From Trichobilharzia szidati (Eukaryota > Platyhelminthes > Trematoda > Strigeidida > Schistosomatidae): DNA of 64,000 nt. Positions within the stretch are counted from its first letter, which is position 1; every line of letters begins with the position of its first letter. This document shows positions 3,660 through 62,090 of this stretch, in pieces. Both the position numbers and the translations under genes were made by a program. The DNA is taken from the NCBI GenBank assembly GCA_944472155.2, contig OX235272.1:97470020-97534019 (forward strand), in the 5' to 3' direction. The notes below the pieces were generated by a model, which was not told where the DNA came from, searched no databases, and was given only the letters and a program-made list of their open reading frames with translations.

Positions 3660-6600
3660 ACTGATAGTACATATATGCTCGCGACAACGAGCAGCGCAAC
3701 TCCTACGAAGTAGGGAAGTGAGGTGCACAGCTTGCTAGTACGCCGCAAGCGTCAAGCTGCCGGTTCACTACCATCTACTGTGTCTGAAACTGAGGGCGAA
3801 AGTATGATGACAACCAGTAGTAGAATCGCCTCTAAAAAATCAGCACATGGTCCTCACATAAACCTCTTCACTCCACCTTATGTACGTGTCACAAAACTTC
3901 AGATACCAAGTCCAGCTCCTACACTCACTTCAGAAATAGAACGACCGGAGCTGTCTGTAGAAGAACTGAAGACTGAGATGCAGGACATAAGGTGTAGTAA
4001 AGTTATGAATGCAGGATTTTCAGAAAATTTCGCCAACTTATCTGAACTATCAACGCAGATTAGTGATATAAAATCACAGGTCTGTGAACTTGCACCTCCG
4101 AACATCTTGACTAGGACCATAAACCCTGGCGAACTTGACACAGAATAAGTAACTAAGATAGACACCTTGATAAACTTCATCACGACAGAGGTTGTCAAAA
4201 GACTTGATACTAAACTAAGTGTGATTGTCTATAATATACCAAATAATAAGGGGCTGAAAAAGGTTCAAAGCATCTTAGTTAGGGCGGCGAAAATGCCCAA
4301 CTCCCAAACAAAATGTCACAGACTGAAGAAGAGTCAGCAAGACCACCAACACACAACGTATCCTATTACACGACACAAGCTACAAACAAATAAAAGTTGT
4401 AGCAGATAAGACAGTGATTGAAAGGCGTGCTTACAATCACCTCAATAAACCTAATGGCAGGACACCGCAATCCACTAAAATAGATAAACACACTGCTAAC
4501 ACGGTAGAAATCATAGCCTTCCCCTCTTTAATCTCACAAAAGTAGCTCCACAGAAAACGAAACCAAACGAAAGACTTGTGAGCTATAGTCTTACTCCTAA
4601 AGTGACTTCTCCTCCCTCTACGGTGGATCTAGATATGTCCATGGACAGCCATAAGACGGAAATCATTCCCTCTTGTAAGCTGACAACATCTCCTAGTCAA
4701 AACGTGACAAAAGGAATGGAACTCGGTGACAAAACTCGCCGAAATACGCCACTTGTTGCGAAGAATCCCCAACATATTCAGACTGCCAAGAATAACTCAC
4801 GCTTACGGGTAAATAATATTCAGAAATATTCCAGCAACCAAATTAAAGACACAAATAAGGACATAGGGTCAAAGGATGATAACGACACAAGCTACTCGCA
4901 TACTGTGCCAAGTCACATTAGTAGCTGGTGTAGTGACGCTATCACGCAAAATAGTATAAGTGACAACACTCGGAGCTCAGCCACCAGCCACTCAGGGTCT
5001 ACAAAGTATAACCCGTAAACCAACTTTGGCAGATTGTACGGAACAAGTCTTCTGGGAAACAAACCACAGTGCAGCTATGCAAATAACGAAACCCACGTAA
5101 GGTCTCTTGGAATGTCCACACACAATGGGCAAATTAACAAGTCATGAGCATCACAAGGTACCAATGATTTTTTATCCAACACATCCCTGTCAGCGCTGAC
5201 CAAAGAGCTGGTGGGGATGTTAACCCTTCTGAACCCATATCACTAATGTCGCCTCCCTACCGGGAAGAAAACAGACATGGGCTAGTACACACGGAACTAC
5301 TAATCACAGCCAACGACTGTGCAGACATAGGCCAAATAAGAACTCCAACCCAAGTCTCCAACCTACCCAAGCCTAGATCTACGTCATCGTATAGTTTATC
5401 TAATAATCCAACCCATTACTCACTAAAAAAATGGATTGTAACTCGACAGACATAGGTGAACATGGTACCCAAACTAGTCGCAACACAGGGATGTCATGCC
5501 ACGTGGAAACAGTGGACGCCGATCCACACTTGAACCTTACTGACGAGCTTAAATACTTCAAACACTACTTCAAATCTCAACTCTATTTAATACTTATTAA
5601 TGCTAGATCTATACTAAACAAACTGCCGATGCTCAGGGCACACACGCTGGTATATGAACCCATAATAATTATTATCACTGAATCCTGGTAACACTCCAAT
5701 ATACCAGACGAAGAGATAAGCATCGATGGGTACATACACTTTCGCTGTGACAGGAAGAGTGGTAAGGGAGGAGGCTGCCTAATGTACTTACTGAACACAC
5801 TGTATTACAGCTAGAAAATAGAGAGTTCAATGACATGCACGACACCCCATGGGTCAACGCACACTTCAAAAGTGCTACACTACTAATAGGATGTATCTAT
5901 AGAGCACCTGGCACCTTTAGTGATTACGAGACACAACTTATAAATGTACTGGAGCAAGTACTCACCCTTCCATACAAGCATAAGATCATATGTGGAGACT
6001 TCAACCTACCCGAAATCAACTGGGATTTATTAAAAGGGCCAACTAAATACGACAAGCTCTTAGGGACACTGGATATTTTCGGCTCGAAACAAACTGTCAC
6101 CAACCCTACAAGAGGTGACAATGTACTAGACTTAATATTCTGTCACGATATATGTTCCCTCCCAATCTTAGTGGGTTCTAAGTTTTCAGGTAGTGACCAC
6201 AAAACAGTGATGTGTGCGCTGCCACTTCATATCATTCACAGACAATAAGGACATACAATTCGCACAAGAAGGCTCTTACGATCTGCGTAACCAAACTTGC
6301 ACAGTGACAATAAAAGCCTTTAAGTCAACACTCCGCGAAAACTTCTTCACAGTCATGTATTCTAAAATATGGAACAATCTGCCCCTAGAAGTCAGGAACT
6401 GCAATACGGTTATTAGTTTCAAACGCTCTCTGTACAGACTATTTCACTCTAGTGATCATATAAATAAACTATTTATTCCTAGAACGAATCAACTATTAGC
6501 CTACTACAGTACCTAAACATGCTTAAATACCTTTACTTCTCTAAAGACTGTAAATAAACTAGTAGAATAAATGCATAAAAAGACTTAGTAGAAATAAATA
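3660..6600 (+). mobile_element. CR1-like non-LTR retrotransposon, internally deleted and frameshifted
   Basis: An ORF1-like low-complexity region (3723-5018, several frames, Ser/Thr/Asn-rich) is followed by an AP-type endonuclease domain. The endonuclease reads ARSILNKLP and IITESW (about 5600-5690), GKGGGCLMY (about 5763-5790), YRAPGT (about 5900) and CGDFNLPEINWDL (about 5992-6030), and ends in SGSDHKTVM (about 6187-6213). Right after this motif (about 6235) the sequence jumps to the element's C-terminal conserved segment (YSKIWNNLPLEVRN, FKRSLYRLF; about 6358-6445), so the whole reverse transcriptase is missing. The tail has repeated AATAAA-like blocks (about 6545-6600). A TAA stop interrupts the endonuclease after ESW. 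Non-functional. Confidence 0.7.
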
Positions 6601-31893: not shown

Positions 31894-32213
31894 TCCATAA
31901 TGGGTAAATTTTTATTTTGATACAGTCTCACAGTGTTATACAGTAATATTTACTGATGACGTTTCGAGCACAATTTATTGCTCATAATCATATCAAGGTA
32001 ATCACACGACTTCCTAAATTCATTTATATTTGGAAATATAAATGAATTTAGGAAGTCGTGTGATTACCTTGATATGATTATGAGCAATAAATTGTGCTCG
32101 AAACGTCATCAGTAAATATTACTGTAAAACACTGTGAGACTGTATCAAAATAAAAATTTACCCTTTATGGAATTACATTCTACCACAGTGCCCAAGTTTT
32201 ATTCTTATATCAA
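31894..32213. mobile_element. PLE-derived palindrome: two pLTRs head to head, with 13-bp TSD
   Basis: A near-perfect palindrome, 31891-32174, with its centre between 32032 and 32033 (arms of about 141 bp, a few mismatches, no internal coding sequence). Each arm is a PLE terminal repeat carrying the ctgatgacgtttcgagcac block. The right side continues to 32213 with the family end (ctaccacagtgcccaag..ttatatcaa), while the left arm lacks these last 40 bp or so. GGGCAATGAAAAT occurs at 31881-31893 and again at 32214-32226, which I read as a target-site duplication defining the insertion. Located in intron 1 of the TMEM45-like gene. Confidence 0.8.
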
Positions 32214-52109: not shown

Positions 52110-54785
52110 CCTAGATTTCTAGGTCACTAGTTTTCTAGCCGGTCCCAAGCCCGGATAAAGAGGGAGGGTTGGGGCCTGGTGCTGGCAACTCCACCTCCAA
52201 AACTTAACCAAATTGCTACAGAAACTTCAACGCACAAATATATTAAAAATTCTAAGAATACAAACAATAACGTTATTTTTCGCTGGAATCGGGGATGTGA
52301 AATGACGCAGGCTGGTGAAAGCCTTCTAGAAGCCAGTCAGACAATGTGCCTCCTTTCGATGAAAGCAAAAATAAGGATGGGGACGTGGAGTGTTCGTACA
52401 ATGTTCGAAGCTGAAAAGGCTGCTCAGGTAGCCGCAGAAATGAGAAGGTATGGAATAGAAGTGTTGGGAATCTGCGAGAGTAGATGGAACGGATGTGGTA
52501 GGTGCCAACTATCAACTGGAGAAACAGTAATCTATTCCGGTCACCCAGAGGACGATCACGAGCACACCGAGGGAAAGGCCATCATGATGTCACCAACAGC
52601 AGCCAAAGCTCTCATACAGTGGGAACCAATCTCTTCCAGAATAATGACAGCCAGGTTCAACTCAAAAGGAAGGAAGGTTACAATCATTCAATGCTATGCG
52701 CCTACAAACGTCTCAGAACAAGAGAAGAAGGAGGATTTCTACAGACAACTACAAACAGTAGTGGACAACGTCCCAAATGGTGATATCAGAATTCTGACGG
52801 GTGATATGAATGCGAAGCGGAGAGGAGACAATACAGGAAGAGAACTCACCATGGGTCGTGAGGCTCTCGGTGAAATGAACGACAATGGTGAACTCTTCTC
52901 AGACTTCTGCGCCTTCAATGATTTGGTGATTGGTGGCAGTGTGTTCAAACACAAGGATATACACAAGGCAACATGGATTCCACCAGATAGACACACCAAA
53001 AACCATATAGACTTCATTTCAATCTCAAGGAAGTGGAGACGAAGCCTACTGGAAACAAGGTCGAGGAGAGGGGCAGGTGTGGGTTCAGACCACTATCTAA
53101 TACAAGGGACTTTCAAAGTGAAGCTGAAAGCCTCGAGGATACCCGGGGATAGGCCACAATGCAAGTTCAACACTCAAAAACTGAAGGACACAATCACACA
53201 GGACACTTTCACTGCAACTGTCAGAGCAAAGCAAGAAACACTACGTGACATCACGAAAGAATCATGTGTGCAAGACCATTGGAACTCTCTGAAGGTGATT
53301 TTCGACGAAACGTGTTCAACGGTTTTAGGAAGAAAGAAGAAACAAGACAAGGAATGGCTCTCAACGGACACTTGGAAGCTAATAGAGGAGAGGAGAATGG
53401 TGAAAGAGAAAATGATTCAATGCAAAGACGGACAAGCGAAAGAGACTCTGAGCACTGGACAAAGAAGTGAAGAAGAGTGCTAGGAAGGACGAAAGACAAT
53501 TCTACGACAATCTGGCCACTGAAGCTGAGAAAGCAGCAGGCAAAAGGGACCTGAGGACACTATATCAGATAACCAAGTCTCTATCCGGGAAGAGATCAAC
53601 ACAAGTGAAACCTATAAAAAAACAGCCAAGGGAACCCAATTACCAAGGAAGAAAGACAGATTAAACAATGGGCGGACCACTTCAAAGAACTCTTGAACCG
53701 AATGAAGTAATTTGGAAACTACTCAAGTACTACTGCGTTCCCCAAATATTCATCAACCTTATTCAACAGCTGTACGACAACGGCACATGCCAAGTGATCC
53801 ACAACGGAAAACTCAGCGAGGCGTTTGGAGTAAACACAGGAGTCTGACAAGGGTGCCTATTATCACCAATGATATTCCTAATTGTGGTGGACTTGATTAT
53901 GCGTCAGACAGTGGGAAACGAGAAGACAGGGATATCCTGGACCGACGTGAAGAACCTAGAAGACCTGGATTTCGCGGATGATTTATGTTTGATGTCACAC
54001 AAAATCGAAGACTTACAAGCGAAAACCGACAAACTAGTCGAAGAAGCAGCAAAGACAGGACTCCAGGTGAACATAGACAAGACGGAGGTTGTGAAAATAA
54101 CCAACCAACAACAGCAGCAACATCCAGCGCCAATCACCATCAATGGGAGGGATTTGAAAGAGGTTACTTCATTCACTTATCTAGGGAGCACTGTCTCAAC
54201 TACAGGAGGAACAGACGAGGATGTCAAATCGAGAATCGGGAAGGCGAGAAACACATTCATCAACCTGAAACCAATCTGGAAATCTTCGTCACTCAGCCAG
54301 CATCAACAACAAAATTCGGATTTTCAATACAAACGTCAAGTCACTTCTTCTATACGGATCAGAAACTTAGCGGGTCACAAAGAATATCTCCAACAGGTTG
54401 CAGACCTTTATCGACAACTGTCTTCGCTCTATACTCAAGATCAGATGGCCGAAAAGAATCACCAACAAGAAACTATGAGAACAAACAAAACAAGAACCAA
54501 TCACCCAACAAATATGTTGGAGAAAGTGGAGATGGATTGGACACTCGCTGAGGAGGCCGCTGGGTGAAATTACGCGTCAGGCCCTCGAGTGGAACCCGAG
54601 AGGGAAGCGGCGAGTGGGACGTCCAAGGGTGACATGGAGGAGATCGTGTGAAGAGGAGTTGAAACAGTATGGATTAACATGGATGCAGGTGAAAAGTACA
54701 GCAGAAGACAGAAGCAAGTGGAGACGTGTTTTTGAAGCCCTATGTTCCACTAGGTATCCAAGGGAACAATAATGATAATAATATT
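52110..54785 (+). mobile_element. RTE-like LINE, near full span, RT partly deleted
   Basis: 5' untranslated region from about 52110 (ctagccggtcccaagcccgg..). An AP-endonuclease frame (52179-53483) reads MGTWSVRTMF, CESRWNG, RILTGDMNAKRRG and GVGSDHYLI, all catalytic neighbourhoods present. After a frameshift at about 53470 it reads ERQFYDNLATEAEKAAGKRD and KQWADHFKELLNR. A deletion at about 53700 then removes the first RT motifs, and the frame resumes FINLIQQLYDNGTCQVIHNG, FGVNTGV(stop)QGCLLSPMIF and LDFADDLCLM (FADD box). The C-terminal region as at 14.2 kb ends in CSTRYPREQ and an AATAATAATA tail. Non-functional, but young by its identity to 14205-15000. Confidence 0.85.
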
Positions 54786-55114: not shown

Positions 55115-56130
55115 ATATAAGTATAAAACTTGGGCACTGTGGTAGAGCATAACTCCATTATGGATAAGATTTTATTTTGATAAGTCACACAGTATTGTAC
55201 AGTAATATTAACTGATGACGTTTCGAGCACAAACTATTGCTCATAATCAAATCAAGCTACTCACACAACTTTTTTCCTTCATTTATATACATGTGTGGAA
55301 TCGATTAGATATTGGAATAAAATTCAATATGAGATAATGTACATTCAGAAATAATAATAATAATACGAGCGTTATTGATCAATTACAATTAGATGGGAAA
55401 TAAAACGAGTGTTTCTATAGTCATAATAATTTACTTGTTAGAATGTTGTGATGTGTTTGAATTGAAATAGAATTTTAAGATTATTTATTATCCTCCCCTG
55501 ATTTGACTGGTGGCAATAATATCTTCCATATTTCTGGTATTTGCATTGAGTCATTTCTGTTGCATGTGTTGGGTGTAGACTCAGTGAACAAGGATTCAGT
55601 AATCAACCTATCTCTCCACCTACCTAGATTACTTTTTAGAATTTTAACCCTATCCCACCCTATTGTGTGGTTGTTTGTTAATGCGTGAAGTGCAATTGCT
55701 GAGCTCTTTTCTATATTACTTTTCTTCTCGGGGTCAACCATTCTTCCCTCAGCTAAATTCTTATGTTCTGATAATCTGTCTACCCCCAACCCACTAGTCT
55801 GACCTAAGTAGTTGACTTCACTCACAGTCATTGCAAGGTATTTTGTAAATTATATTATTTTGTCGAATTGGGTCCACCGGGTCTTTTAGCCTACAGAGCT
55901 TGTCCCTACCTGAGTGAGTTTGTAGGTTTGAATGCCACCCTAATTCCTGCTTTATTAAGAGTCCTACGTAGTGTCTCAGATGTCCCCTCCTTATATGGTG
56001 TAACAGTGGATGACTTATATTCTCTCTTATTTATGTTATCAACAAAGTGCGGCTGTTTGAAAAAGGGAGTGCTTTTTTCGCGTATTTTCACGTATTTGAC
56101 AAATTGCTGTTTTTGTTGTGTTATTCACTT
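55115..56130 (-). mobile_element. PLE, 3' part: linker, GIY-YIG endonuclease, pLTR
   Basis: Minus strand. Linker SSTVTPYKEGTSETLRRTLN, then GIRVAFKPTNSLR, then after a frameshift RDKLCRLKDPVDPIRQNNII, YKIPCNDCE, a second frameshift, and NYLGQTSGLGVDRLSEHK to the stop at 55481. The pLTR runs from 55480 to 55115. Together with 60180-62090 it makes one PLE whose RT-endonuclease junction has been opened by the CR1-like insertion. The order RT, linker, GIY-YIG, pLTR is the established PLE layout. Confidence 0.8.
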
Positions 56131-56239
56131 CGAGAACATTTAAAAAACTTTAACTTGACTTTTGTCTGTTAAGTTTTTATTTTAAACATTTATATAGTCT
56201 CTATTGGGTAAATTGTCTTGGCAGTTCCATTAGTTCATT

Positions 56240-57331
56240 ATGTCAAAAGTACCACATAAATGTAATAGGGTGGAGTGTTACTTTTTGGTAGATGATGGAA
56301 TACAGTGTAATAACTGTAAAATGTGGTATCATAAGATGTGTACTGGATTACGTACAGCTGCATACAAACGTTGTATTGCTCCAACATCCAACTGGATGTG
56401 CAGAATGTGCTGCTCCCCAAAGATGACTTTGATAAGGGAGGCTCACGAACTACTGTCTAAGGCTATGGAACTTCCTGATGATAGCGTGGCTAGTAATAGT
56501 GACACAAACTGCCCGTCTGAAGATGACGCTGCAAGTGCCATCATGAATGTTACCACACCGGCGATTACTATCCCAGTTACCCCGGAAGTAAAACCTACTA
56601 GGCGTTCGAAGCGTCTTAGTAAGCGAAAGGGTAACAGAACGGAAGCTGCAAACAGCATCTCAGCACCAGAGAACACTGTAAGCGAAGTTCACCATGAAGT
56701 TGGTGCAGACACTGATCTCGATTGTACCATCAAAAACTGCAGCAGCCCTGAGAAGCAACTGCAGGCAGATGATCAGTGGGTAACGAAAATAAGCAATCGA
56801 AAGAAACATAGTAATACTGATGGTAAGCAAACGTCAGTAGTGGTGAGAAAAGACGTAGCCACTGCTAAACACGATAAGCTCTCCTTAGACTCTAACATAA
56901 TTGTTGGAAATTTAGAAGAGTCCAAAGAATCTGATCCCGTAAAAAGGCACGATCACGACCTTGAATTAGTGAGTAGTATTATAAGGAAGATGCTTCCAGC
57001 GAATTTACCTGGAGTATCGATTAAAAAGCTGATTAGAATAGGCAAAAGAGATGATGAATGTTCTAGTCAGCGTAGATTGCTTAAAGTAGTCTTAGGTTCC
57101 CCTGATGAACGGAATCATCTACTGGCTAATGTACACAACCTTTCCGGGTCAGGAATTTCAGTCAGACCTGATTTATCTCTTGAAGACAGACTAAAACGAA
57201 AAGAAGTTTTGTCCCAGCTAGAAACAAGACGTAAAAATGGTGAGACTAACCTTAAACTGGTGGGTTTTCAAATAGTCAGGTCTTGGAAACGTATGCTTCC
57301 AAGACCTGTGTGGATAAGCCGGACCACATAG
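56240..57331 (+). CDS. CR1-like ORF1 protein with PHD-type zinc finger
   Basis: 363 residues. N-terminal zinc finger (about residues 8-58) with CNNCKMWYHKMC and WMCRMC, the Cys4-His-Cys3 spacing of a PHD finger. A central acidic and Ser/Thr-rich linker contains a basic cluster (RRSKRLSKRKG, about residues 115-125) that could serve nuclear entry or nucleic-acid binding. A C-terminal region (about 215-340) reads NIIVGNLEESKESD, IRKMLPANLPGV, LIRIGKRDD and LLKVVLGSPDERNHLL, similar in layout to the RNA-binding/chaperone segments of LINE ORF1 proteins. PHD fingers are known in CR1 ORF1. The stop at 57329-57331 lies 49 bases inside the ORF2 frame. A -1 frameshift at 57262-57268 would instead join it to ORF2. 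Confidence 0.85.
   Translation: MSKVPHKCNRVECYFLVDDGIQCNNCKMWYHKMCTGLRTAAYKRCIAPTSNWMCRMCCSPKMTLIREAHELLSKAMELPDDSVASNSDTNCPSEDDAASAIMNVTTPAITIPVTPEVKPTRRSKRLSKRKGNRTEAANSISAPENTVSEVHHEVGADTDLDCTIKNCSSPEKQLQADDQWVTKISNRKKHSNTDGKQTSVVVRKDVATAKHDKLSLDSNIIVGNLEESKESDPVKRHDHDLELVSSIIRKMLPANLPGVSIKKLIRIGKRDDECSSQRRLLKVVLGSPDERNHLLANVHNLSGSGISVRPDLSLEDRLKRKEVLSQLETRRKNGETNLKLVGFQIVRSWKRMLPRPVWISRTT
57262..57307 (+). promoter_or_regulatory. candidate -1 ribosomal frameshift signal joining ORF1 and ORF2
   Basis: GGGTTTT at 57262-57268 is read in ORF1 as G GGT TTT, the canonical X XXY YYZ slippery arrangement. It is followed by nine bases (57269-57277) and a perfect 11-bp inverted repeat, AGGTCTTGGAA (57278-57288) and TTCCAAGACCT (57297-57307), around an 8-base loop. 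A one-base backward slip puts ribosomes into the ORF2 frame, which is open from 57256 (stop TAA at 57253-57255). ORF2 has no AUG before its endonuclease domain. Confidence 0.7.
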
Positions 57332-60123
57332 GAAGCCTGAAGGTAGTGTACACTAATATACGCAGTATCGGGAACAAATTTCACGAGCTAGGTGTATTAG
57401 TGGAAGACCTTAGCCCAAGTATTGTGGCCATTACTGAAACATGGCTGATTTCTGGATTAGATGACACACCTGAGCTATGCGGATTTAGTTGCTTGCGCAG
57501 CGACAGGGTTAAGGGTCGTAGAGGTGGCGGGGTTGCTCTGTACATCAACAACTCTCTACATGTTCGTTCCGTGAAATCTGAAGCGCATGACAGTGGGACA
57601 AGTGAGGTAATTAGCTGTGAAGTAAGCTTTGCAACTGGCACTTTACTCATTGGTGTTCTGTATAGAAGTCCCTTTTGTCAGTGTGATGACTTTATTTTAG
57701 ATCACCTCAAACAATGGAGTAAACACAGTAGCTGTCTTATTCTAGGTGACTTTAATGCACCTCATATAGACTGGATAGCTGGCACATCTCCAGGATCCAC
57801 AAATAAGTTTGACAGCCGGTTACTCTTGACTACCATGGAAAATGCCCTGACACAACATGTCTTAGGTAGTACAAGATTCGGTTCTACCCAAGGATCTTCC
57901 TTGCTGGACTTAGTGCTTACTCATGACAACGACGACGTGGATGGTCTAGTTATTCATCCACCTCTAGCAAACAGTGATCATGGAGTGTTAGATTTTAACT
58001 TAAGGGTTGGCAATTTAGTCAGTTTTCAACCCAAATCCCGACCTAGTGTTTGGCATGCTGACATAGTCTCTATAAAGGAGCGTGCTTCAACTACCGACTG
58101 GTCAGTCAATATTGTCTCATCCATTGAAGATGAATGGGATAGATTTAAGAATACACTTGAGAGGGTTACCACTGATTTCATTCCCTGGAGGGTTCCTAAA
58201 AGACCAACAAACCGGCCACCATGGATAAATAGACAAGCTATAACACTCCTAAGACGGAGGAAAAGGTTCTGGAATCTCTTTGTTTCTACTGGGCTACAGC
58301 AGTTCCGGCTGAAATACTGTGAAACCAGAAACCAGTGTAAAACTTTGATTCACCAGTCAAGGATAGCTTACGAAACCCAGTTAGTTAAAAGTTCACCAGG
58401 CTGCCCAAAAAGACTCTTCTCATATATCAAGAGAAGAACACGTAAGAGTGATGCTATCCCACCTCTTATGCTTAAAGATGACCAGACAAACATGGCTGAG
58501 GATAACTTGACTAAGGCTGAGGCTTTGTCCAAGCACTTTAGTCAAGTATTCTCTGATAATATTGATACCAGCTTTGTAACTTTTCCAGAAGGTAACTTGA
58601 AAATGGCACCCTTATACATTGGAAAGGATACTGTCCTAAAGTACCTTCTAAGGCTCAATCCTGGTAAGTCCAGTGGCCCTGATGAACTCCACCCACGTAT
58701 TTTAACAGCATTGGCTGAAAACATAGCCGAGCCTTTGTCGGTAATCTTCAATATGTCTCTGGACCAGTCTAAATGTCCAAGAGACTGGAAAGATGCCATC
58801 ACTAGTCCGGTCTTCAAAACCGGATCTAGAAACTTAGTTCAGAACTATCGTCCTGTTAGTTTGACCAGTATTGTTGTTAAACTACTAGAAAGAATAATTC
58901 GTGATGCTATCATTCAGTTTATTGAAGGGAACAAACTTTTCGCTGTGGAACAGCATAGTTTTAGAGCAGGTCATTCTTGCTTGACCAACCTTCTTTTGGC
59001 CAGAGAAAGTTGGGCAAGCTCAGCTGATGCTAATATACCGGTGGATGCCATATTCATCGACCTTAGCAAGGCGTTTGACAGGGTTTCTCATTCAGGTCTT
59101 CTAGTTAAGTTAAGTAGTATGGGAATCAATAAAGTGGTTGCCGACTGGATTCAAGACTTTCTAAAGGACAGAAGACAAAGAGTACGAGTTAACGGGGTTT
59201 TATCAACATGGGAATCGGTTAAGAGTGGCGTTCCTCAGGGTACAATTCTAGGCCCACTTCTTTTCCTGATTTATGTTAATGAGATTCCATCGGTAGTTAG
59301 GTCATCCTGCTTACTGTTTGCTGACGACATCAAGATATGGAGGGCTTTACACGATGACAGTGATCAACTTGCTTTGCAGGAAGACTTAAACTTGTTAAGT
59401 GATTGGTGTAAGCACTGGGCCTTGGAGATTAACTTAAGCAAGAGTGTAGTTATGCATGTATCTCATAGTCACGTGCACAATTACTCAATGAATGGCATTA
59501 CTCTCCCAGTGGTCACTGAGTACAAGGACTTGGGAGTGGTTGTGCAGCATGACTTGAAAACAGCAACAAACTGTAGAGCTGCAGCCACTAAGGGTTTTCG
59601 AATATTATGGGCCATACGCAAAGCTTTTGCGAATTTTGACGCTGAAATATTTCGTATATTATATCCGACTTATATCAGACCTCATTTGGAATATGGGATC
59701 CAGGCAGCGAGCCCGTGTTTCAAATACGAAATAGACTTATTAGAAAGGGTGCAAAGAGTAGGAACTAAGCTAATAAAAGGTTTCTCAACCCTCTCATATG
59801 AAGAGAGGTTAAGTCGACTGGGTTTATTTCCACTGTCATACAGACGACTTAGGGGTGACCTAATACTAGCATACCGTATCCTAAGAAATGATTTTGGAGC
59901 AAATTTATCTAATTTATTTCTTCCTTCTAGCAACAACCAATTGCGAGGACATCACCTCAAGGTTCAAAAACCACGGTCGAATCGTCTGCGTTTGGAGATC
60001 CGTTTTTCGCATCGGATTGTGAACCATTGGAACTCCCTACCGGAACACGTCGTATCAGCGCCATCCGTTGATTCATTCAAGGCGAGATTGGACCTCCTGT
60101 GTGTAACAAATCGAAAGGATTAA
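57283..60123 (+). CDS. CR1-like ORF2: AP endonuclease and reverse transcriptase
   Basis: 946 codons counted from a TTG; the frame is open from 57256. Endonuclease motifs: YTNIRSI, ITETWL, RRGGGVALY, LGDFNAPHIDW and SDHGVLDF (within residues about 20-245). RT motifs: NPGKSSGPDELHPRIL, YRPVSLTSIVVKLLERI, QHSFRAGHSCLTNLL, AIFIDLSKAFDRVSHSG, SGVPQGTILGPLLFLIY, the catalytic LFADD (FADD at about residues 679-682) and YKDLGVVVQ. A C-terminal segment HRIVNHWNSLPEHVVSAPSV is shared by many CR1 elements. The enzyme nicks target DNA and copies element RNA there. No AUG occurs before the endonuclease, so translation probably depends on ORF1, by frameshift or reinitiation. Confidence 0.9.
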   Translation: METYASKTCVDKPDHIGSLKVVYTNIRSIGNKFHELGVLVEDLSPSIVAITETWLISGLDDTPELCGFSCLRSDRVKGRRGGGVALYINNSLHVRSVKSEAHDSGTSEVISCEVSFATGTLLIGVLYRSPFCQCDDFILDHLKQWSKHSSCLILGDFNAPHIDWIAGTSPGSTNKFDSRLLLTTMENALTQHVLGSTRFGSTQGSSLLDLVLTHDNDDVDGLVIHPPLANSDHGVLDFNLRVGNLVSFQPKSRPSVWHADIVSIKERASTTDWSVNIVSSIEDEWDRFKNTLERVTTDFIPWRVPKRPTNRPPWINRQAITLLRRRKRFWNLFVSTGLQQFRLKYCETRNQCKTLIHQSRIAYETQLVKSSPGCPKRLFSYIKRRTRKSDAIPPLMLKDDQTNMAEDNLTKAEALSKHFSQVFSDNIDTSFVTFPEGNLKMAPLYIGKDTVLKYLLRLNPGKSSGPDELHPRILTALAENIAEPLSVIFNMSLDQSKCPRDWKDAITSPVFKTGSRNLVQNYRPVSLTSIVVKLLERIIRDAIIQFIEGNKLFAVEQHSFRAGHSCLTNLLLARESWASSADANIPVDAIFIDLSKAFDRVSHSGLLVKLSSMGINKVVADWIQDFLKDRRQRVRVNGVLSTWESVKSGVPQGTILGPLLFLIYVNEIPSVVRSSCLLFADDIKIWRALHDDSDQLALQEDLNLLSDWCKHWALEINLSKSVVMHVSHSHVHNYSMNGITLPVVTEYKDLGVVVQHDLKTATNCRAAATKGFRILWAIRKAFANFDAEIFRILYPTYIRPHLEYGIQAASPCFKYEIDLLERVQRVGTKLIKGFSTLSYEERLSRLGLFPLSYRRLRGDLILAYRILRNDFGANLSNLFLPSSNNQLRGHHLKVQKPRSNRLRLEIRFSHRIVNHWNSLPEHVVSAPSVDSFKARLDLLCVTNRKD

Positions 60124-60179
60124 CACAGGCATATAGCCTACTATCCTAAATAAATTGTAAACTGTAAACTGTATTACTA

Positions 60180-62090
60180 GTTCCACAACTATTTTTATTT
60201 TGTTTTTGGCCTTTAGTGATCATCCTAATGAGTTTTATAGGATAGTTATTCAACACCAACGCTTCTTCTATCTGTTTCATTTCATCGTTTAGGCCTTTCT
60301 TTGTGCTATTGCTCGGTTTGTCAGATACTTAACTAAGCCTGCCTTCACAGACAACGGATGAGATGAATTAAAGTCTAAATATCTGTTAGAATGCGTTGGC
60401 TTTTTATGAACTCTAGTGTGCAGTTTACCTTCTTCTGTTCAATTGATTTTACAATCTAACATAGCTAATTCTCCTTGTTCATTTTCTGATTCAAATGTAA
60501 ATTGTATTCCCTTCACTAGTGAGTTTATATGCGTCAAGAAGCTAGAGATATGTTGTTTCTAACACTGTGAAAGTGTCATCCACATATGTCCACCATATTT
60601 TTGGAGTAGGATTAAATGTATTTAGAGCAATATTTTCCCAGCTGTCCATAAAGATGTCTGCTACGATAGGGGATATTGGTGATCCTATAGCTACACCACC
60701 TGTTTGTTTATATATTTTACCCTTGAATTTAAAGACAGTAGATGTGAGGCATAACTGATTTCATAAAATATTTTTCTCGATGAGCAGCTTTGTCCTATTG
60801 GAGTGAGAGCTGGCTGCTAGCCAAATTGGTCGATGGTAATATTGGTCGTGAGAAAAATATGAACAAAGTCTCATTCAACAACCAACCACAGCAGACTTTG
60901 CGTAGGCGGATACAGTTAGCATATAAGATGATCTGACATTCAAGAAACAGCCACAAAGAGATGAAAGATTAATTTTCAGTGAGAAACAAACAATCAGAAG
61001 ACTGTGTTTTTCTGCTAACAATAATCTATAATAATGTACATGAAAAGCTATAAATATGTGTAATAAAAGGTCCGGTTGCCTGGCCCTTTTCTTCTGTTGT
61101 TACACTATGACTAAGTTCGGGATCAGAAGTTAGTTCTTTTTTAACTGCTTATAAGTCCATATTTATTGGTATGTTAGTGTACAGACTAGTTATATCAAAA
61201 CTGATCATTTTTTCTTTATTCTATAATTGTATGTTATTTAGTTTCTTCTTCATTTCATATGAATTAGTTAGCCTAGAGTTTGAATGATTTCTAATGGGGC
61301 ATAGTATTAGAGCTAAGTGTTTTGATAATTCATACGTCGGCGTATTTCTGAAATCTACTATTGGTCTTATGGGGTAACCTGGTTTATGTATTTTTATAGT
61401 ACCATATATTATATATCTATAGTACCATATACAAGCGTTATTAGTTTTAGGCATTAAATTAAACCATTTAGACTCACCCAGTGACAGCTTCATAATACGT
61501 ATTAAATCTGCTGTAGATTTCTTAATCTTATTCATTACTGTATTTACAGGCATCTTAGTTTCCTCATATGGACCCGTTTCAATGTGTTCAGTGACTTTAT
61601 ATTATATATATTATATTATCAGATTTGTCCAAAACTACTGTAGAGTTTCCTTTATCAGCTTTTGTGATAATGATGTTTCTATCATTTTTAAAATTGATTA
61701 GAGCTAATCTTTCGGTTTTTGCTAAGTTTGAATGTGCTTTCTTTTGTTTCTTAAGAGTTGATTCACATTGAGTTCGAACCTCTTCTGCTGTTGTCTTATC
61801 TATTGAACTTAATGCTACTTCTATGTTAGGGATGACATCTTCTGGTTTTATTTTGCTAACCGTTGCATTGAAATTTAACCCTTTTTTCAAGCTCTTTTAT
61901 TTCACAAGAGCTTAATTCTCTTGAAAAGAGGTTGATTGCCCACTTTGTTTTGTCCTTGGAAGATGAAATATGGTTGTCAACTTCTTCGTTCATTGTGCTG
62001 TCCTTTTCTTCTTCGAAGTTTGCATTCGTCTTCATCCGTAACAATTGTTTTATTAATACCTTTGTTATCACTGACCTCTAATTTTATTTG
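60180..62090 (-). mobile_element. PLE, 5' part: N-terminal region and reverse transcriptase, decayed
   Basis: Minus strand. N-terminal region WAINLFSRELSSCEIKELEK (62071-61856 frame) and LNFNATVSKIKPEDVIPNIE, then INFKNDRNIIITKADKGNST (61890-61597), the PLE nucleotide-binding neighbourhood. RT: GTIKIHKPGYPIRPIVDFRN (61553-61221), GVAIGSPISPIVADIFMDSW and IWWTYVDDTF (about 60710-60580; YVDD is the catalytic box), then FLTHINSLVKGIQFTFESEN, KLHTRVHKKPTHSNRYLDFN and SSHPLSVKAG (about 60550-60330). Several frameshifts and stops. Its continuation toward the endonuclease lies at 56130-55115 beyond the CR1-like insertion. Confidence 0.8.

Follow-up and report, generated by a model that had tools for sequence, protein, structure and literature searches.

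How the second open reading frame (ORF2) of two-ORF LINEs is translated has been settled for few elements. Where the ORFs of LINEs overlap, as in mosquito T1/Q and in R1, there has been older speculation about frameshifts. In the excerpts of the SART1 and L1 reports considered here, the second ORF depends on the first, as in the element described below, through reinitiation in SART1 and through a coupling in L1 that is left unexplained and for which reinitiation has been proposed (PMC2881922, PMC5972666). In those elements a UAAUG stop-start or reinitiation gives a separate ORF2 protein, whereas the present element would give a fusion. HeT-A gag is said to require frameshifting (PMC5009743), and for ORF2 of Paramecium LINEs either +1 frameshifting or reinitiation was suggested from consensus sequences (PMC5405496); HeT-A is without a reverse transcriptase (RT) of its own, unlike our LINE, and the excerpts of these two sources do not report a -1 heptamer and hairpin joining ORF1 to ORF2. 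Among CsRn1-like elements of flukes and insects, which are LTR elements (Ty3/gypsy), the consulted part of the source describes gag and pol overlapping by -1 frameshifting in some members and fused in others, the -1 overlaps being in AgCR elements and a single fused ORF in the fluke element PwRn1 (PMC2582038). CR1 LINEs with a PHD-type ORF1 have, as here, a PHD-like ORF1 followed by an endonuclease-RT ORF2; that source, in the part consulted, covers ORF1 types and not ORF2 translation (PMC4120745).

Programmed -1 ribosomal frameshifting (PRF) is known chiefly from viruses. In retroviruses and plant umbravirus-like RNAs, an X XXY YYZ heptamer lies in a -1 overlap and is followed by a 5-9-nt spacer and a stem, as in our locus. 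HIV-like spacer and stem lengths also resemble those found here. GGGUUUU itself is listed as the slippery site of several umbra-like viruses, including CY1/CYVaV, in the excerpts consulted (PMC13098196, PMC8218546); our signal differs in belonging to a non-LTR retrotransposon and not to a viral genome, and in having a simple hairpin, whereas CY1 is described as using long-distance structures (PMC10602861). Among the open-access papers listed, none reports such a signal for CR1 elements in its title or abstract opening.

We analysed a 64,000-nt stretch of DNA, hereafter the window, from Trichobilharzia szidati, which carries a LINE that we take to belong to the CR1 clade, following the first-pass annotation and the domain layout. 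Judged from sequence comparison, the overlap of its two ORFs is a working -1 PRF signal that gives an ORF1-ORF2 fusion, with a probability of roughly 0.85 (Table 1).

Table 1. Features of the LINE and of its ORF1/ORF2 junction, in window coordinates
Feature	Position	Strand	Remarks
ORF1, 0 frame, 363 aa + TAG, PHD-finger-like N-terminus	56240..57331	+	Frame 56234-57331, Met at 56240
ORF2, stop to stop, 955 aa, endonuclease and RT, -1 frame	57256..60123	+	
ORF1/ORF2 overlap, 76 nt	57256..57331	+	
Slippery heptamer G GGT TTT (GTG GGT TTT in ORF1 phase)	57262..57268	+	Kept in families A, B1, B2 and E
Spacer, 8 nt	57269..57276	+	
Stem of 12 bp, 5' arm	57277..57288	+	
Loop, 8 nt	57289..57296	+	
Stem of 12 bp, 3' arm	57297..57308	+	
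GTG in the ORF2 frame, candidate start in a rival reading	57310..57312	+	ATG at this place in two Schistosoma relatives
ORF1 stop TAG	57329..57331	+	60 nt 3' of the heptamer
Short tandem repeat of TGTAAAC by the likely 3' end of the LINE	60156..60173	+	Found by eye; end putative

ORF1 matches PF00628 (PHD finger) with an E value of 0.00086, a weak match below Pfam's own cut-off, and its UniRef relatives carry PHD-type names. ORF2 of the window, like that of the related family B2, has Pfam matches for an endonuclease and then an RT; we take the matched endonuclease families to be of the APE type. Direct reading of the coordinates bore out what the first-pass annotation had claimed of the junction: ORF2 lies in the -1 frame and opens at the start of the overlap, it has no AUG ahead of its endonuclease (of its 955 residues, the earliest in-frame Met is number 194, within the endonuclease and past its motifs YTN at 32 and ETW at 61), GGGTTTT is in phase with ORF1, and a fusion would join 343 and 951 residues. 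Within 57150-57344 the only ATGs are at 57237, in the third frame, and at 57293, in the ORF1 frame. The hairpin, announced as an 11-bp stem after a 9-nt spacer, stood with its 8-nt loop but had to be redrawn, since C57277 pairs with G57308 as well, which makes the stem 12 bp and the spacer 8 nt.

According to our reading, ribosomes on ORF1 would arrive at G GGT TTT and be held back by the hairpin that lies 8 nt further 3'; some would slip back one base and go on in ORF2, yielding a fusion of PHD-ORF1 with endonuclease-RT, about 1,294 residues long, beside a surplus of free ORF1 protein, in the manner of Gag and Gag-Pol. We infer the slippage itself, its efficiency and the use of the fusion in retrotransposition; the fusion through a -1 frameshift that the annotation proposed is supported by the conservation described below.

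We scanned the window for perfect stems of at least 10 bp, with a loop of 3-12 nt, starting 5-10 nt after any slippery heptamer. Of the 258 heptamers on the forward and 257 on the reverse strand, only the GGGTTTT of the junction was followed by such a stem. Folding of the 70 nt that start at this heptamer gives -24.7 kcal/mol (z -3.4), a value equalled by none of 200 shuffles. When the stem was relaxed to at least 8 bp with G-U allowed, at the same distance, 1 of 11 heptamers passed in the A piece, 1 of 8 in B1 and 2 of 4 in D, only junction heptamers among them, and 0 of 9 in the B2 piece L091. A possible pseudoknot between the hairpin loop and 57359-57365 was spotted by eye; further hairpins 3' of the stem vary among families and were left out of the counts.

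We searched the 1.11-Gb genome of T. szidati for copies of the element (family A). The 76-nt overlap gave 40 scored matches of 393 candidates, the window among them, and we read the remaining 39 at 4 kb; because they were picked by similarity of the overlap, their identity there is no evidence. Together with four copies fetched as mutants, 43 copies were read, of which 12 have both ORFs open (ORF1 at least 330 aa, ORF2 at least 950 aa). All 12 carry GGGTTTT and the GTG of Table 1, at 96.4-99.4% identity to the window. For a fairer sample, we hand-picked pieces from matches to two ORF1 proteins, 18 with P0007 (from Schistosoma rodhaini) and 20 with P0004, the latter biased to odd or less similar matches. 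GGGTTTT was present in 34 of these 38 pieces, the others having GGATTTT (2), GAGTTTT (1) and GTGTTTT (1). Full reads of three of these four heptamer mutants showed a broken ORF2 each time (526, 154 and 406 aa). With G-U allowed, all 12 stem pairs are intact in 16/18 and 14/20 pieces of the two samples. Young A copies that lack the heptamer or the stem and keep both ORFs, which the annotation had named as evidence against itself, were not seen, a weak result in a sample chosen by its overlap. ORF1 is 371 aa long in 17 of the 39 other A copies and in 10 of the 12 with both ORFs open; the window ORF1 (56240-57331) has lost about 8 residues by an in-frame deletion, compared with P0001, P0002 and the 371-aa copies. 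Position 57326, in the overlap, is polymorphic (A/G/T); the change affects the residues of both frames and may distinguish subgroups.

Family B, found through the T. regenti protein P0008, comprises B1 and B2, and its ORF1 is 35-37% identical to that of the window. The heptamer is GGGTTTT in the same phase in 39 of 41 pieces (B1 19/20, B2 20/21), with one GGGTTTA and one GGGTTTC. Both ORFs are open in L088 and L089 (B1) and in L091 (B2), where the earliest ORF2 Met is residue 206, 206 and 70, respectively; the ORF2 frame of L088 ends earlier, at 943 aa, and ORF2 is broken in L090 (B2). The hairpin starts 8 nt past the heptamer in A, B1 and B2 alike. In B1 it has 10 bp, all of them intact in 14 of 20 pieces with G-U allowed, and in B2 it has 7+2+3 bp separated by two 1x1 mismatches. 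Our stem-length measure undercounts this interrupted stem, and folding energy was used in its place: z is -1.84, 172 of 4,000 recodings being as low, and alternative folds compete once the flanks change. In L068 (B2) and in L138 (family D, below), a deletion at the junction puts ORF1 and ORF2 in one frame, making natural fusions; each was met once among the pieces read.

The check that the first-pass annotation had proposed, for compensatory changes in the stem across relatives, was positive for two pairs: from A to B1 the outer C-G becomes G-C and an inner U-A becomes C-G, the latter combining a Trp-to-Arg replacement with a silent substitution in a Pro codon. In an alignment of ten hand-chosen haplotypes, 88.3% of stem cells are paired, and covariation is 0.124 versus 0.034 in shuffles, none of 500 of which reached 0.124; six slid alignments all scored worse. 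The number of pairs changed on both sides (2) and of extra pair types did not exceed the shuffles (230/500 and 260/500), and each of the two double changes may be a single event. One A row and all seven B rows fail to pair at columns 26-37. The codons of conserved residues are also kept more often in the overlap than elsewhere, in 10/14 versus 212/586 cases between A and B1 (p=0.0088) and in 9/14 versus 222/600 between A and B2 (p=0.038); the B1-B2 comparison is not significant (p=0.77).

Families D and E were reached by more distant ORF2 queries, D with P0026 (Dicrocoelium) and E with P0020. D gave 50 scored matches, 48 of them without stops. Its ORFs overlap by 49 nt, again in the -1 frame, with A AAA AAC in phase, a 7-nt spacer, a 10-bp stem that includes one G-U, and an ATC loop; the earliest ORF2 Met is residue 94, beyond YSN (48) and ETW (77). 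AAAAAAC is found in 19 of the 20 fetched pieces, and the stem is intact in 18 of 19, L148 having G-C for the G-U. In the exception, L137, the 3' half of the junction survives, while other sequence replaces the end of ORF1, the heptamer and the 5' arm; the ORF2 frame of this copy is open for 1,043 aa without the heptamer. The D fold has a z of -4.41, matched by none of 3,000 recodings. Family E gave 49 scored matches, 33 without stops, and GGGTTTT is present in all six junctions read (L141-L146), the -1 frame opening at the first base of the heptamer (TAA GGG TTT). The earliest Met is residue 47 in five of them and 134 in one, YTN (31) preceding it, and no local hairpin beyond chance was found in E (z 0.1 to 0.7). 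ORF1 identity among A, B1 and E is only 33-37%; the heptamer, its phase and the overlap are nonetheless kept. The residue ahead of the GF encoded by the heptamer is Val in A (GTG in 36 of the 38 pieces, GCG in two), Leu in B1 and B2 (TTG) and Lys in E (AAG): the codon ends in G although the residue differs, which rebuilds GGGTTTT in A, B and E.

Outside Trichobilharzia DNA, we compared proteins. The tail of ORF1 follows the pattern GF..V.S.K..LPRP, and, of eleven relatives, the nine that retain a C-terminus all have GF with the conserved tail; four of these nine are not Schistosoma by name or source. Two-frame back-translation of Schistosoma ORF1/ORF2 pairs showed that each pair can be encoded by one DNA in the -1 frame, with 7/7 codons agreeing for P0004/P0012 and 11/11 for P0007/P0014, compared with a best of 4 among 360 control pairs and a best +1-frame run of 5 among the tested pairs. 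As far as back-translation allows, a -1 overlap is thus common to two Schistosoma relatives, in which an AUG is present just 3' of the position of the hairpin: P0012 and P0014, available as proteins only, have their annotated Met at GTATGG, where A has GTG. The T. regenti protein P0013 begins at an internal Met that corresponds to window residue 194, as expected if no AUG lies upstream. IMG/VR and GTDB contigs gave no relatives of the element, and a query with the fused protein gave six matches, three bird-named and none fluke-named.

Whatever the mechanism, ORF2 must be entered between the -1-frame stop ahead of the heptamer and the endonuclease motifs. A start at the earliest in-frame AUG would cost every family its YTN or YSN motif and, save for the usual form of E, its ETW as well. 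The -1 frame opens 6 nt ahead of the heptamer in A, 18 nt in B1 and B2, 0 nt in E and 9 nt in D, which leaves scant other room for entry. An AUG or a single frame common to a family at the junction, which would speak against the annotation, was found in none of A, B1, B2, D and E. The window has a -1 overlap, an in-phase X XXY YYZ, a stem after a 5-9-nt spacer and conservation beyond what the protein demands; the spacer and structure recur in B1, B2 (interrupted) and D, and not in E. Coupled termination and reinitiation, in which ribosomes that finish ORF1 would be held by the hairpin and restart upstream at the GUG, as in SART1, is an improbable account of the element. The GTG is present in 17 of 18 A copies, and the AUG at the homologous place in two Schistosoma ORF1/ORF2 pairs keeps reinitiation a rival for those relatives, although databases favour M-initial proteins, so that these AUGs may be an effect of annotation. 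Against it, the homologous triplets are CTT in B1 and GTT in B2, which are not near-cognate starts; the sole A copy of the sample with an ATG there (L134) has a broken ORF2 (186 aa); and the window has neither a UAAUG nor an ORF2-frame ATG near the ORF1 stop. An AUG is also present in L010 and L084, where ORF2 is broken, and in the partly read L078. Reinitiation leaves unexplained why the heptamer is rebuilt after differing residues and why the -1 frame is open from the heptamer onward.

Initiation near the beginning of the endonuclease, at a non-AUG codon or through an IRES, with the overlap coding only for the C-terminus of ORF1, is less probable still. Near-cognates (CTG, GTG, ACG, AAG) do occur in the ORF2 frame of A, B1 and B2, the families scored, but only AAG (57316-57318 in A) is at a place common to all three. 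AAG is among the weakest start codons, and such initiation predicts neither heptamer, spacer and stem nor the separate signal of D. Transcriptional slippage on four T is likewise unlikely. That the conserved tail peptide yields heptamer and stem by coincidence, without a role, is the least probable, though GF and LPRP are conserved in protein relatives. We recoded the junctions synonymously, and a slippery heptamer, whether or not a stem followed, arose in roughly 9-14% of cases (A, B, D and E tests). In a set of 200,000 A recodings, which left the ORF1 peptide unchanged and sampled codons at the frequencies of the element itself, 19,214 had a slippery heptamer and 227 a stem of at least 11 bp, with 24 having both; a stem of at least 12 bp arose in 10 of 30,000. 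Of 30,000 B1 recodings, 37 had a stem of at least 10 bp and 1 this stem with the heptamer; for D, 4,229 of 30,000 had a slippery heptamer, 17 a stem of at least 10 bp (G-U allowed) and 2 both. Together with its uniqueness in the 64 kb, this sets the combination of heptamer, spacer and hairpin beyond chance, as the annotation had argued. Family E, which has the heptamer without the stem, gives no support against coincidence; if coincidence held, ORF2 would still require an entry route. With no common AUG, a weak AAG and a canonical in-phase heptamer in all families, -1 frameshifting is the best reading.

Beyond this element, we consider it likely that -1 frameshifting is the standard route of ORF2 expression in blood-fluke CR1-like LINEs, giving a Gag-Pol-like fusion, and, as part of the same reading, that the signal emerged, or was exchanged for another, on more than one occasion, as GGGUUUU in A, B and E versus AAAAAAC in D suggests. 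If so, several abundant families with a canonical -1 signal would produce their RT joined to ORF1 in a fixed ratio, which would bear on LINE particle assembly and cis-preference; such a signal would also explain gene models such as P0013, which start at an internal Met and miss most of the endonuclease.

Other features of the window were observed in passing. At 31939-32126 lies a palindrome whose perfect arms of 92 bp enclose a 4-nt loop and which by eye runs on past a mismatch; part of it (TGATGACGTTTCGAGCACAA) is found again at 55213. Two reverse-strand ORFs, at 55481-55849 and 61221-61601, resemble by eye two parts of a Penelope-like element, and Pfam gave no match for either; this resemblance suggests that the LINE inserted into such an element. 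A second endonuclease-RT element, of another kind and with broken frames, lies at 52131-54567 on the forward strand, with a weak endonuclease match and an RVT_1 match. On the same strand, a fragment at 5581-6149 codes for a relative of the ORF2 endonuclease at 34-36% identity.
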